A DNA stretch of 49,508 nucleotides, taken from Natrialba hulunbeirensis JCM 10989 (GTDB taxonomy: Archaea > Halobacteriota > Halobacteria > Halobacteriales > Natrialbaceae). The stretch covers positions 358,276-407,783 of the forward strand of contig NZ_AOIM01000041.1 in NCBI RefSeq assembly GCF_000337575.1, in the 5' to 3' direction. Numbering within the stretch: position 1 is the stretch's first letter; each line of letters begins with the position of its first letter. Shown one piece after another: positions 35,906-40,063 of this stretch. Below the pieces are notes generated by a model that saw nothing but the letters and a program-made list of their open reading frames with translations, was not told where the DNA came from and searched no databases. The position numbers and the translations under genes are program-made.

Positions 35906-36835
35906 ATGGATGGTCGCGCCGTCGCACCCGCTGCCGGAACCGTTCTCAACGCGCTCGCAACGGGCACCGGTTCGGCGTTCGCGATCGACCTCGAGACGAC
36001 TGCGACGGTCGAACTCGAGCAACGCGAGGAACTCGCAGAACGCGAAAACGGCACCGTCGATGGCCACATTGTGGGCCACCCCGACGCCGACACTGACCTC
36101 ATCGAACGCTGTGTCGAACTCGTAATTTCGGAGTTCGCCGCCGACACCGGACTCGACCCAGAGACGACCGACGGTCGCGTCCGAACTGAAAGTGAGGTCC
36201 CACTGGCTGCCGGCCTGAAAAGTTCGAGCGCCGCCGCCAACGCGACGGTGCTCGCGACACTGGACGCACTCGGCGTCCGCGACACCGTCGACCGAATCGA
36301 CGCCTGTCGACTCGGCGTCCGCGCCGCCCGCGAAGCCGGCGTCACTGCCACCGGCGCGTTCGACGACGCCAGCGCCAGCATGCTCGGCGGCGTGACGATC
36401 ACCGACAACACGAGCGACGAACTACTCGCCCACGAAGAGTTCGACACAGACCAGCAGGCACTCGTCTACACCCCACCAGAGCAGGCCTTCAGCGCCGACG
36501 CCGACATCGACGCCTGCAAGCGCGTCGCGCCGATGGCACGCCTGGTCGAAGAACTCGCACTCGACGGCCGCTACGGCGAGGCGATGACCGTCAACGGATT
36601 TGCGTTCTGCGGGGTACTCGAGTTCCCGACGGGACCGATGGTCGAGGCACTCCCGGATGTGGAGGGCGTTTCGCTGTCGGGGACGGGGCCGAGTTACGTT
36701 GCGATTGGTGAGCAGGAGTCACTCGAGACTGTCCGCGAACGGTGGAACGAGCGTGACGGGACGACACGGATTTTGCAGTTGCGGACGGATGGAACACGTG
36801 TGCAGGACACGTCCCAGAGCGGTGAGGAGATATGA
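35906..36835 (+). CDS. aroK: Shikimate kinase, archaeal GHMP type
   Basis: A 309-residue GHMP-fold kinase that phosphorylates shikimate in aromatic amino acid synthesis; it is unrelated to bacterial AroK. The N-terminus AVAPAAGTVLNALATGTGSA is typical, the ATP loop is PLAAGLKSSSAAANATVLA, and the third motif is VEGVSLSGTGPSYVAIG. The ATG at 35906 sits right before the conserved GRAVAPAAGT. The chorismate mutase gene follows after 51 bp, the usual haloarchaeal pairing. Confidence 0.94.
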   Translation: MDGRAVAPAAGTVLNALATGTGSAFAIDLETTATVELEQREELAERENGTVDGHIVGHPDADTDLIERCVELVISEFAADTGLDPETTDGRVRTESEVPLAAGLKSSSAAANATVLATLDALGVRDTVDRIDACRLGVRAAREAGVTATGAFDDASASMLGGVTITDNTSDELLAHEEFDTDQQALVYTPPEQAFSADADIDACKRVAPMARLVEELALDGRYGEAMTVNGFAFCGVLEFPTGPMVEALPDVEGVSLSGTGPSYVAIGEQESLETVRERWNERDGTTRILQLRTDGTRVQDTSQSGEEI

Positions 36836-36886
36836 ACTGGCGAGAAGGAGTAGCAACGAGACTTACCGACTGAAAGACGAGATATC

Positions 36887-37213
36887 ATGACTCGAAACAC
36901 AGCCACAGACGGCGGATCTGAGACGGAGAAACGGACACCGGAGGAGATGGACCTCGAAGAGCTCCGGGAGGAAATTCAGACGATTGATCGAGAGATTGTC
37001 GAGTTGATCGCCCAGCGCACCTACGTCGCGGATACAATCGCGGCGGTCAAAGATGAGAAGGATCTGCCGACGACCGACGAGAAACAGGAAGAGCAGGTGA
37101 TGGACCGGGCGGGTCGAAACGCAGAGCAGTTCGACGTGGATGCGAATCTCGTGAAGGCGATCTTCCGACTATTGATTGAGTTGAACAAGGTCGAGCAAAG
37201 GGATAGTAGATAG
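36887..37213 (+). CDS. aroQ: Chorismate mutase (AroQ type)
   Basis: A 108-residue all-helical AroQ-class mutase converting chorismate to prephenate. LEELREEIQTIDREIVELIAQR supplies the first active-site Arg and helix 1. AAVKDEKDLPTTDEKQEEQV carries the conserved Lys and the loop, and FRLLIELNKVEQ is helix 3. It is the second gene after shikimate kinase. The C-terminus here is KVEQRDSR, whereas a stray copy of the gene end at 38363-38410 reads KVEQRENR, the ending I know from other haloarchaea. The 3' end may therefore have been replaced by an insertion. Confidence 0.93.
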   Translation: MTRNTATDGGSETEKRTPEEMDLEELREEIQTIDREIVELIAQRTYVADTIAAVKDEKDLPTTDEKQEEQVMDRAGRNAEQFDVDANLVKAIFRLLIELNKVEQRDSR

Positions 37214-37305
37214 CACTAAGCGGGTTTCTGAATGCGTGTACCGCCCGATAAGCGATTAGAATTTTTCCGATTGCTGTTCAGTTGGTTCGTGTTGAATGGT
37301 TTGAG
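37182..37305 (+). repeat. Left copy of the chorismate mutase 3'-end repeat
   Basis: The 17-bp core TGAACAAGGTCGAGCAA (37182-37198) is identical to 38379-38395. Further downstream, GAATTTTTCCGATTGCTGTTC and the following bases to about 37305 resemble 38418-38465. The repeat therefore covers the gene end and about 90 bp of flank, with a roughly 35-bp length difference between copies. Confidence 0.7.
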
Positions 37306-37370
37306 CAGTAGACCGATCACCAGAACCAGCGGACACTACACGTGCATACAGGCCATGTATTTAATCAGTT

Positions 37371-37589
37371 TCATGGACCTTTTTCCATCCTATCTTCTAA
37401 CTCCTCAATTCGGTTCAACATGTCCAATTGTGACTTCTTATACAGAAAGTAACGTTCACCTATAGTTAATCCAGATACGAACCCGAGAGCTGACCCAAAT
37501 GCACCACCCAAAATATATCCAAATATTGCTAATATAACACCAGAACCAAACATAAGCACGTTTTTCGATGGTGGGGAATTTGATTGCAT
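37371..37589 (-). CDS. Small membrane protein in AT-rich islet
   Basis: A 72-residue protein that I do not recognise. Residues about 11-43 are one long or two short membrane segments rich in Gly (FGSGVILAIFGYILGGAFGS, then ALGFVSGLTIG), followed by a charged amphipathic helix, KSQLDMLNRIEELEDRMEKG. The DNA is clearly AT-richer than the rest of the window, with AAT, AAA and TTA codons, which suggests recent transfer. A TATA-like CTTATAAG lies about 25 bp before the ATG. It sits next to a toxin-antitoxin pair. Confidence 0.6.
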   Translation of the reverse strand: MQSNSPPSKNVLMFGSGVILAIFGYILGGAFGSALGFVSGLTIGERYFLYKKSQLDMLNRIEELEDRMEKGP

Positions 37590-37607
37590 GAGTATTATAT
37601 CCGACTT

Positions 37608-37618
37608 TTCTTATAAGG
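37608..37618 (-). promoter_or_regulatory. TATA box for the small membrane protein gene
   Basis: CCTTATAAG on the minus strand, centred about 25 bp before ATG 37589, fits a leaderless transcript. A second AT-rich box (GGATATAATA) lies between it and the start. Confidence 0.45.
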
Positions 37619-37696
37619 ACATAAATAGATTATTCATACCGGTGGAAATTCTGACCTGTGGTGTCTTGTTTGACGATACTGATCACAGCAGACACG

Positions 37697-38050
37697 TCAG
37701 TCCAGTCCGAGGCTCAGTGTTAACGCTTCGTCCACTGCCTCCATCGTTTCTGTGTCGAGGCCTCCAAGTACCGAGTGAATCCGCTTTTCGATAGAAACGG
37801 CACGAATCTGGTCGAGACGAACAGACGAATCCTTCTCGAAGGGCGACTCTGCTGCTTCGACGAGAACCTCGAATGGATAGCCTCGATACGTCCCTGTCGC
37901 AGGGGCAACAATAGTCGTACTGGCATTTTTGTTCCCAACGTCGTTTTGGACGACTACTGCAGGACGAGTTTTCTTCATCTCGTGCCCTTCCGCAGGATCG
38001 AGCCGAACGATAACAACGTCACCGCGACGAACCTCTGTCTCCTTGCTCAT
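37697..38050 (-). CDS. PemK/MazF-family toxin
   Basis: A 117-residue toxin of the PemK/MazF fold, which usually cuts mRNA at specific short sequences. The family pattern is clear: VRRGDVVIVRLDPAEGHEMK, KTRPAVVVQNDVGN, TTIVAPATGTYRGYPFEV and VRLDQIRAVSIEKRIHSVLG. Its ATG overlaps the stop of the preceding antitoxin gene by 4 bp, as usual for such pairs. The gene lies in the islet between the two chorismate mutase end copies. Confidence 0.92.
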   Translation of the reverse strand: MSKETEVRRGDVVIVRLDPAEGHEMKKTRPAVVVQNDVGNKNASTTIVAPATGTYRGYPFEVLVEAAESPFEKDSSVRLDQIRAVSIEKRIHSVLGGLDTETMEAVDEALTLSLGLD

Positions 38051-38286
38051 TTATCCAGCCCGCTCCACGCTTCGTCCGACGTGTCGTCCCACTCTTCGGC
38101 AAGTTCTTCTGCACTCTCAGACGCCTCGCGATAGGCGGCGGCCAGTTCGTCCTCATCGGGATGGTTGGAGTCTACCTCAACGACAGCGACGGTTACGCGC
38201 TTGTTCGCGTACTCCGTCCCGAGATAGATTCGACCCCGGTCGTCAGTCTCGTTGGTCTGGAGGTCTCGTGCGTCTACTTTCGTCAT
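38047..38286 (-). CDS. Antitoxin partner of the PemK/MazF toxin
   Basis: A 79-residue acidic protein with a short beta-rich N-terminal half, ARDLQTNETDDRGRIYLGTE, then YANKRVTVAVVEVD, similar to AbrB/MazE-type DNA-binding ends of haloarchaeal antitoxins. The helical acidic C-terminus, AAAYREASESAEELAEEWDD, would wrap around the toxin. It precedes the toxin gene with a 4-bp overlap and has its own TATA box, so it probably represses the pair. The assignment rests mainly on context. Confidence 0.85.
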   Translation of the reverse strand: MTKVDARDLQTNETDDRGRIYLGTEYANKRVTVAVVEVDSNHPDEDELAAAYREASESAEELAEEWDDTSDEAWSGLDK

Positions 38287-38309
38287 GTTCCCAACTATAT
38301 TCCGCTGCT

Positions 38310-38318
38310 GGATAAATG
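38310..38318 (-). promoter_or_regulatory. TATA box of the toxin-antitoxin operon
   Basis: CATTTATCC on the minus strand is centred about 28 bp before the antitoxin ATG at 38286, indicating a leaderless transcript. Confidence 0.5.
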
Positions 38319-38362
38319 TTGCCCACTATTACCCACACCTCATATTTTCCGTGAGTCGTACC

Positions 38363-38410
38363 ATGGATTTCATCTACCTGAACAAGGTCGAGCAACGCGA
38401 GAATCGGTAA
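38363..38410 (+). pseudogene. Stranded 3' end of a chorismate mutase gene
   Basis: This short frame reads MDFIYLNKVEQRENR followed by TAA. It matches the final residues of the chorismate mutase encoded at 36887-37213 (LIELNKVEQRDSR) over a 17-bp identical core and has the more usual family ending. No other part of the gene is present. Downstream, 38418-38465 also resembles the flank of the intact gene (37257-37305), and a third partial core (TGAACAAGGT) is at 38480-38489. Confidence 0.7.
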
Positions 38411-38548
38411 CACTCGCCAGAGATTTTTCGATAGCGTTCAGCAGCCGATTTTTGAATGGGGCTCTTCCTGTTGTCTGCTTGAACAAGGTGGGGTAGATAC
38501 GTCGGCCCTTTATCGGCGTGGACGTTGTATGAGAATCGATCATCACTC

Positions 38549-39142
38549 ATGCTATCGTTCCTCATTTACTACGGCACTGGGGAGGGCCAGACGGCCACTG
38601 TTGCCGACCGAATCGCCGACGTACTTCGTGACCGTGGTCACGACGCGACCGCGATCAACGCCGCGGAAGATTCGGGAAGTCGTGATCTCGAGTCGTTCGA
38701 CGCCGTCCTCGTTGGAGCATCGGTACACATGGGAACGCATCAGTCGGCGGTGAGTGAGTTCGTCCGTACCGAACGCGAGGCGCTGGCGTCGCGACCGACG
38801 GCGTTTTTCCAACTCTCGCTTGCGTCAGCCGTCGACGACGAGTCAGCACGGGCGGACGCAGCGGAATACGTCGATGAGTTCCTCGAGAAGACCGACTGGC
38901 AGCCGGATCGAATCGGACTCTTCGGCGGCGCACTTCGGTACTCGAAGTACGGCTTCCTCAAACGGCTCGTGATGAAACGAATCGCGAAGGGAGCGACCGG
39001 CGATAGCGACACGTCCCAGGATTACGAGTACACGGACTGGCACGAGGTCGAGGCGTTCACCGCCGACTTCGCTGCGTTCGTCGAGGGGCGGCTCGATGCA
39101 CCGGCAGCCTCCGATCGAACCCAGGAGCAGGACCGAGCGTAA
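38549..39142 (+). CDS. Flavodoxin-like protein (HemG-type protoporphyrinogen oxidase family)
   Basis: A 197-residue flavodoxin-fold protein. The FMN phosphate loop is YYGTGEGQTATVADRI. VLVGASVHMGTHQSAVSEFV and GLFGGALRYSKYGFLKRLVM with the following KRIAKGATGDSDTSQDYEYT match the HemG/flavodoxin-domain group. E. coli HemG oxidises protoporphyrinogen IX with menaquinone. Haloarchaeal relatives have not been tied to that reaction, so a general flavodoxin role is also possible. The ATG at 38549 is followed directly by the first beta strand. It lies just after the islet repeats. Confidence 0.85.
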   Translation: MLSFLIYYGTGEGQTATVADRIADVLRDRGHDATAINAAEDSGSRDLESFDAVLVGASVHMGTHQSAVSEFVRTEREALASRPTAFFQLSLASAVDDESARADAAEYVDEFLEKTDWQPDRIGLFGGALRYSKYGFLKRLVMKRIAKGATGDSDTSQDYEYTDWHEVEAFTADFAAFVEGRLDAPAASDRTQEQDRA

Positions 39143-39256
39143 CACACCAGCTGGCTGGGACTCCGTTCACGAAGACAACTCAGAATCGGCGTACTCGAGT
39201 ACCCCACCGACACTCGAGACGGACGGCGAGTCGTGATCGAAATCAATTCACAGGAC

Positions 39257-40063
39257 TCACCGGTTCGCTTCGAACCACTCCGTCGCGAAGTCGACGAGCG
39301 CCGGTTGCTCGAGTAGGGTTGCCGTCGCAGCGCCAACGACACCCTCGCGAGAGTCGTGCTGGGCTTCGAACGCGGCGCCGACTTCCGGGAAGTCGTCAGT
39401 GGACGTCTCGAGTTCCTCGATGTCACGCAGGACTCGGTCGCCGTCCTCGAGGATCGGCACGGTTGTCGTCGTGGTTCCGAGATCGAGATCGGCGCGGTAC
39501 TCGGCCAGATGCAGCGACGTGTTGGTGCTGTAGTCGGTCCCGAGCATGAGTACGGCACCGTCTTGCTCGTAGACGGACGCGAGCGGGGACTCCTCGCCGA
39601 GTCCGTAGTCGAGCGGGTGGTCGGCGACGATCTCCTCGGCCTCCGCACCCCACGCTGCCACCGAGTAGATCGGGTGTGAACTCCGGACGACATCGGTGTA
39701 GGTTCGGAAACACTCCGGGATCGCGCCCATGCCTCGCGTCGGTGTTGCGGCTGGCCGAAATGCGGGTCGCTCCGTCCGGATCGTCTCGATCCAGTCCGAC
39801 GGAACGGGTGGATTCGACCAGACGGATGGATCGGAGTACTGTGACGTGTGCGTTGGCATCACGAGCGTTCCGTCGGGAGTCACGGCGTTCTGGAGCGCCT
39901 CGACGGCGGCCTGGGCGTCGCCTGCGACCCAGCCCAGCGACGAGAGCGAGGAGTGAACGAGAAGGGTCTGTCCCGGCTCTACGCCCAGATAGCGTAAATC
40001 TTCAGTCAGCGACGAGACCGTACACGGCTCCTGCACGCGATCGACAGCGTCTGCTTCGCCCAT
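39257..40063 (-). CDS. AAC(3)-family aminoglycoside N-acetyltransferase-like protein
   Basis: About 268 residues from ATG 40063, where the family sequence begins; 29 upstream codons are unrelated. Conserved parts are TLLVHSSLSSLGWV, TLVMPTHTSQYSDP, FRPAATPTRGMGAIPECFR, RSSHPIYSVAAWG and AVLMLGTDYSTNTSLHLAEY. AAC(3) enzymes transfer acetyl from acetyl-CoA to amino groups. In archaea the natural substrate is unlikely to be an antibiotic, since archaeal ribosomes are largely insensitive. An AATTACA box lies about 27 bp upstream. Confidence 0.9.
   Translation of the reverse strand: MGEADAVDRVQEPCTVSSLTEDLRYLGVEPGQTLLVHSSLSSLGWVAGDAQAAVEALQNAVTPDGTLVMPTHTSQYSDPSVWSNPPVPSDWIETIRTERPAFRPAATPTRGMGAIPECFRTYTDVVRSSHPIYSVAAWGAEAEEIVADHPLDYGLGEESPLASVYEQDGAVLMLGTDYSTNTSLHLAEYRADLDLGTTTTTVPILEDGDRVLRDIEELETSTDDFPEVGAAFEAQHDSREGVVGAATATLLEQPALVDFATEWFEANR

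Follow-up and report, generated by a model that had tools for sequence, protein, structure and literature searches.

Why does the 3′ end of the chorismate mutase gene (aroQ) of Natrialba hulunbeirensis JCM 10989 occur twice, with a toxin–antitoxin gene pair between the two copies? We addressed this question in the window, i.e., the whole 49,508-nucleotide stretch of DNA that was analysed, and at aroQ loci of other haloarchaea.

The repeated gene end and its cargo

A 17-nt core, TGAACAAGGTCGAGCAA, has the same letters at 37182-37198 and 38379-38395, and the likeness stretches to 81% across 36 nt. This core is the longest exact direct repeat of positions 36001-40000, for which the maximum in 200 shuffles was 14. 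The frame through the second copy reads ...YLNKVEQRENR-stop and ends at 38410; the terminus of the functional aroQ is LNKVEQRDSR. The flanks at 37257-37305 and 38418-38465 aligned with a local score of 34, compared with 24 at the 99th percentile of 5,000 shuffles. The preliminary description of this DNA had noticed the identical core, the two termini, and the flank likeness, and was correct on all three points. Between the two gene ends lies a 1,197-bp MazEF cassette, and the GC content of the insert is 0.49 vs 0.62 for the window. The features of the locus are as follows.

36887-37213, + strand: aroQ, chorismate mutase (PF01817), with final codons (LNKVEQRDSR) inferred to come from the cassette
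37181-37206, + strand: attL core; invariant TGAACAA at 37182-37188, within the deduced crossover interval
37199-37305, + strand: left arm (P′) of the MazEF-type cassette, aaagggatagtagatagcactaagcg...; partly like the right chromosomal flank
37371-37589, − strand: 72-aa AT-rich predicted membrane protein, regarded as filler
37697-38050, − strand: MazF/PemK toxin (PF02452, E=2.7e-30)
38047-38286, − strand: putative 79-aa antitoxin, overlapping the MazF toxin gene
38333-38377, + strand: right arm (P), class II, ...tcgtaccatggatttcatctac; score 33.0, window excluded from the model
38378-38410, + strand: attR core and displaced original gene end, LNKVEQRENR-stop
38411-38548, no strand: right chromosomal flank, common to four Natrialba species; contains the partial core at 38480
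38549-39142, + strand: flavodoxin-like gene (PF12724), right border marker

The cargo had been described as a membrane-protein gene and a PemK/MazF pair, and all three frames were indeed present. A protein family search gave no family match for either the 72-aa or the 79-aa protein. The 72-aa frame is unique to the window's member of the MazEF cassette type; the 79-aa antitoxin and MazF form an almost constant pair (39 MazE and 40 MazF matches). With a toxin domain and an overlapping small partner, the pair meets the criteria for a putative MazEF type II toxin–antitoxin system, its toxicity and neutralisation being inferred.

The region past the last core (38411-38465) is similar to the MazEF cassette's left arm, and the flank may therefore be the decayed arm of an older unit. 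The partial core at 38480, which had been listed as a third copy, does exist (11-16 nt) and is kept in three relatives as flank sequence. As a third site it was rejected: its class scores were -45 and -29 vs +33 for the real site, and since it has no attachment arm, it is probably not a site.

Occupancy of the aroQ end in Natrialba and other haloarchaea

Locus BLAST, core scan, and typing of units indicated that the array of the window consists of MazEF followed by the flavodoxin gene. The same gene follows MazEF and PIN/AbrB (VapC/AbrB) in N. magadii (a species name that we assigned), four units (a degraded one, MazEF, PIN/AbrB, and RelBE) in N. chahannaoensis, and a single RelBE unit in Natrialba sp. 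SSL1. The right flank past the last core is alignable among all four. The check proposed earlier, that relatives carry different cargo at this point, was thus strongly satisfied. A wholly empty site, which had also been named as support, was not found in Natrialba: all four close relatives have at least one unit, with differing cargo.

The occupancy extends well beyond this genus. A first survey of 1.37 Mb detected 136 core matches 3′ of aroQ on the aroQ strand vs 3 on the opposite strand. Among Natrialbaceae, at least one extra gene end lies downstream of aroQ in 72 of the 96 loci, and a toxin–antitoxin match within 3 kb in 59; the respective numbers for 40 other loci, chiefly of other haloarchaea, were 15 and 17. 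A genome-wide search found the core pattern in 115 of 125 genomes and a control pattern in none. Among the matches listed, the core stands at or after aroQ, except on a short contig (G041:C155) that has an array without aroQ. By manual count, an aroQ array holds about 29 of 32 close RelB homologues (at least 79%) and about 38 of 44 close MazF homologues (at least 76%). The small element inferred at aroQ in the preliminary description is thus supported, although it is not isolated and belongs, as a single unit, to a cassette array found across the family.

Several cassette types recur with constant orientation and often constant length: RelBE units (approximately 752 bp) measure 750-754 bp in 19 of 22 cases, PIN/AbrB units (approximately 784 bp) 775-785 bp in 15 of 23, and PIN/RHH units (approximately 1,087 bp) 1071-1089 bp in 7 of 8. 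VapBC units are approximately 830 bp long, and MazEF and other-cargo units vary in length. The types make up 39 distinct array compositions, in which their order is permuted (MazEF-RelBE and RelBE-MazEF; VapC1-RelBE and RelBE-VapC1; MazEF-VapBC2 and VapBC2-MazEF). Cargo other than toxin–antitoxin pairs includes NikR-NicO, Nramp and PHO4 transporters, a Cys/Met PLP enzyme, an FAD oxidoreductase, and an O-methyltransferase.

Some loci depart from this arrangement. On replicons labelled as plasmids, aroQ was observed with a toxin–antitoxin array in Natronorubrum bangense (NZ_CP031307.1, 214 kb) and, by RelB position, with an array in Natrononativus amylolyticus (NZ_CP101460.1, 241 kb). Halosimplex aquaticum has two aroQ genes on one chromosome, each ending ELNKVEQRESR. 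At 236-280 kb of another chromosome (G079), MazEF and RelBE lie approximately 39 kb apart and distant from aroQ; there, a degenerate core closes the MazEF unit and a RelBE left arm comes next, so that an array was probably split by rearrangement. Copies away from aroQ in three genomes (G036, G038, and G007) show greater divergence and have no core.

Crossover interval, arm classes, and integrases

Next to the core, we analysed 87 junctions at which both neighbouring units were typed. Columns up to -1 followed the type of the left unit (z mostly 7-28) and only slightly that of the right one; in columns from about +9/+12 onward the reverse held. Between them, CTGAACAA is almost invariant, and the switch falls within +1 to +8. 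This agrees with the earlier proposal that insertion at the gene end delivered a replacement 3′ end, and it meets the criterion of a crossover confined to a 6-8 bp overlap, as deduced from the junctions and without cleavage data. The core is an imperfect 9-7-9 inverted repeat, TGATTGAGT-TGAACAA-GGTCGAGCA in the window and TGATCGAAC-TGAACAA-GGTCGAGCA in aroQ of most relatives. Such a repeat would fit a tyrosine recombinase site; it is suggestive only, because the right half is also under coding constraint.

Two classes of upstream arm were distinguished, each common to unrelated cargo. Class I (...GTAACGTGAGTTATAGAC) is found in VapBC2 and RelBE units, and class II (...ATGGATTTCATCTAC) in MazEF, PIN/AbrB, PIN/RHH, and NicO units. 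Arm models trained on the toxin–antitoxin and NikR-NicO units, with a threshold of 1-in-10^4, recognised 41 of 51 other-cargo units (22 as class I and 19 as class II); the remaining 10 fitted neither class.

Tyrosine integrases of one family adjoin aroQ in three genomes (G073, G012, and G111) and in Halolamina pelagica, and a fragment is present in a 3-kb unit with a class I arm (L131). Those of G073 and G012 match PF00589, the other two are homologues, and the catalytic R, HxxR, and Y are all present in the alignment. The arm at the next core was class I in G073, G111, and L131 and class II in G012. That of Halolamina was predicted to be class II before it was read, and scored 15.8 vs 0.2. 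The arm class was accordingly matched in five of five cases, although the association has n=5 and the ends of the large elements were inferred from the next core downstream. The end of the G073 element is 73-87% identical to VapBC2 arms over 45 nt, compared with at most 56% for 20,000 random 45-mers.

As for other contents, the G073 element at aroQ (72 kb) carries the integrase, an Eco57I-type methylase, and a second tyrosine recombinase, and the G012 element (32.5 kb) the integrase and a resolvase. A virus as the vector was considered and rejected, as the exact core pattern had no matches in viral contigs and the integrase gave just one weak phage match.

No integrase was found near aroQ in the window's genome, and none is encoded in the window cassette. 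The earlier inference that the islet is a passenger or remnant without an integrase stands for the window itself, but not for the site, which related integrase-bearing elements use elsewhere.

Proposed insertion mechanism, alternatives, and known systems

We propose, with a probability of approximately 0.83, that the islet arose when a cassette lacking an integrase of its own entered a gene-end attB by tyrosine recombination, probably in trans. Recurrent occupancy, directionality, the switch point, the shared arms, and the integrase–arm association were established by sequence comparison. The aroQ 3′ end would be a chromosomal attachment site (attB) that haloarchaea reuse repeatedly. A circular element with a copy of the aroQ end, itself an inference, would recombine there within CTGAACAA; the element copy would then supply the last ~9 codons of aroQ, and the old end would be displaced rightward. 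Because each insertion remakes the core at both ends, more units could enter, yielding head-to-tail directional arrays. Most units bring either one toxin–antitoxin pair or a small metabolic operon, without a recombinase. As both arm classes also end integrase-coding aroQ elements, those integrases are suggested to move the small units in trans; this action and present-day mobility remain inferred. The toxin–antitoxin pairs probably persist through addiction, which may also discourage loss of the array. Overall, the first interpretation of the islet was supported.

An alternative that we consider unlikely, though not to be dismissed, is that large integrase-bearing elements were stripped to their addiction genes, leaving units that never were independent cassettes. 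Large integrase elements do occupy the same site, the 3-kb unit of L131 retains both an integrase fragment and a class I arm, and MazEF and other-cargo units vary in length. The near-constant lengths of RelBE and PIN/AbrB units across many genera and array positions count against it, because independent decay would not halt at one base; even so, a single decayed unit could have spread later, and some units may have come from larger elements by decay, not as cassettes in their own right. Improbable, to our judgement, is ordinary homologous recombination from aroK-aroQ to the downstream genes, with the cores as mere short homologies and no recombinase needed today. The cores offer 17-26 bp or more, whole-locus exchange is plausible in haloarchaea, and cassette similarity is independent of host similarity, the identity of cassettes between genomes showing no correlation with that of aroQ (rho -0.14 to 0.12, for aroQ only). 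This process leaves unexplained why the switch at CTGAACAA is sharp, why unrelated cargo shares two arm classes, and why neighbouring integrases have matching arms. Whole arrays can nevertheless also be exchanged in this manner between flanking genes.

A true integron-type system with IntI and attC sites would account for a directional, toxin–antitoxin-rich array whose recombinase lies apart from most cassettes, but there is very little room for it. An attC-like single-strand fold was absent at six junctions (z -0.39 to 0.53), and two aroQ integrases scored 56.3 and 36.9 bits vs a cut-off of 220 for NF040815, the archaeal XerA/integron-integrase model; both were also far under the cut-offs of Xer models. 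With both the attC fold and the IntI criteria unmet, this reading was rejected. Least credible is that the aroQ end was repeated by chance or merely duplicated in tandem, which the single extra copy in the window might have allowed. The repeat is the longest of the region and beyond all shuffles, and its recurrence downstream of aroQ in Natrialbaceae and the typing of units refute this explanation.

The proposed insertion by tyrosine recombination would place the islet close to known gene-end elements. Integrative elements at the 3′ ends of tRNA or protein genes of archaea and bacteria have been reviewed (PMC8371274), and in a survey of Thaumarchaeota, 14 of 68 elements lay in 3′-distal protein-coding regions (PMC6563490); both protein-gene 3′ ends and tandem integration are already known for archaeal elements (PMC6563490, PMC8371274). 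The aroQ system shares with them the tyrosine integrase, an attB at a conserved gene end, restoration of the gene by the element, and tandem integration. It differs in that most of its units are 0.75-1.6 kb long, lack an integrase, and carry one toxin–antitoxin pair, and in that a single protein gene is the array site family-wide and beyond. The window cassette meets the gene-end element criterion, with a gene-end direct repeat at both borders and a restored gene, and behaves like such an element, its excision being inferred. It encodes no integrase, whereas related elements at this site do, and it is therefore a non-autonomous unit rather than a complete member.

Integrons and CALIN arrays, including archaeal integrons (PMC9668308), likewise have head-to-tail directional cassettes, toxin–antitoxin cargo, and a recombinase set apart, whereas the aroQ arrays have no attC fold or IntI at the site and use a double-stranded core within a housekeeping gene. 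In a word search, neither Halobacteria nor haloarchaea turned up in that paper. The dif/pdif modules of Acinetobacter (PMC6449649, PMC13141974) are also short, carry toxin–antitoxin or other genes between short recombination sites, and are shuffled in order; they have been described chiefly from plasmids and rely on XerC/XerD of the host. The aroQ units differ by having one orientation, one conserved gene end, and arms shared with element-borne integrases.

Integrase-less elements of the MICE/IME type are mobilised in trans when the integrase of a helper element recognises their arms. Mobilisation in trans by class-matched integrases is likewise the best-supported mechanism here, but it, like the sharing of a class with possible helpers, rests on sequence alone. 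A broader reading, which as a whole we put forward tentatively and at somewhat less than even odds, is that the aroQ end is an integron-like, non-integron capture platform of haloarchaea for small recombinase-free cassettes with two interchangeable arm classes, that two element-borne tyrosine integrase lineages capture and shuffle the cassettes in trans, and that toxin–antitoxin pairs anchor the arrays.

In the open-access literature searched (subscription journals were outside the scope), aroQ is not described as an integration site in archaea, nor is a haloarchaeal toxin–antitoxin cassette array at one protein gene. The growth of the arrays resembles gene collection by bacterial integrons, but the attachment site differs; it would be a further way, based on a protein gene, of building cassette arrays, alongside integrons and dif modules. 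The short core, two arm classes, and specific integrases give a defined, testable recombination system in genetically workable archaea, which could yield a tool for site-specific insertion. For haloarchaea themselves, the system offers an explanation of how toxin–antitoxin modules and small operons are gathered at one chromosomal place.
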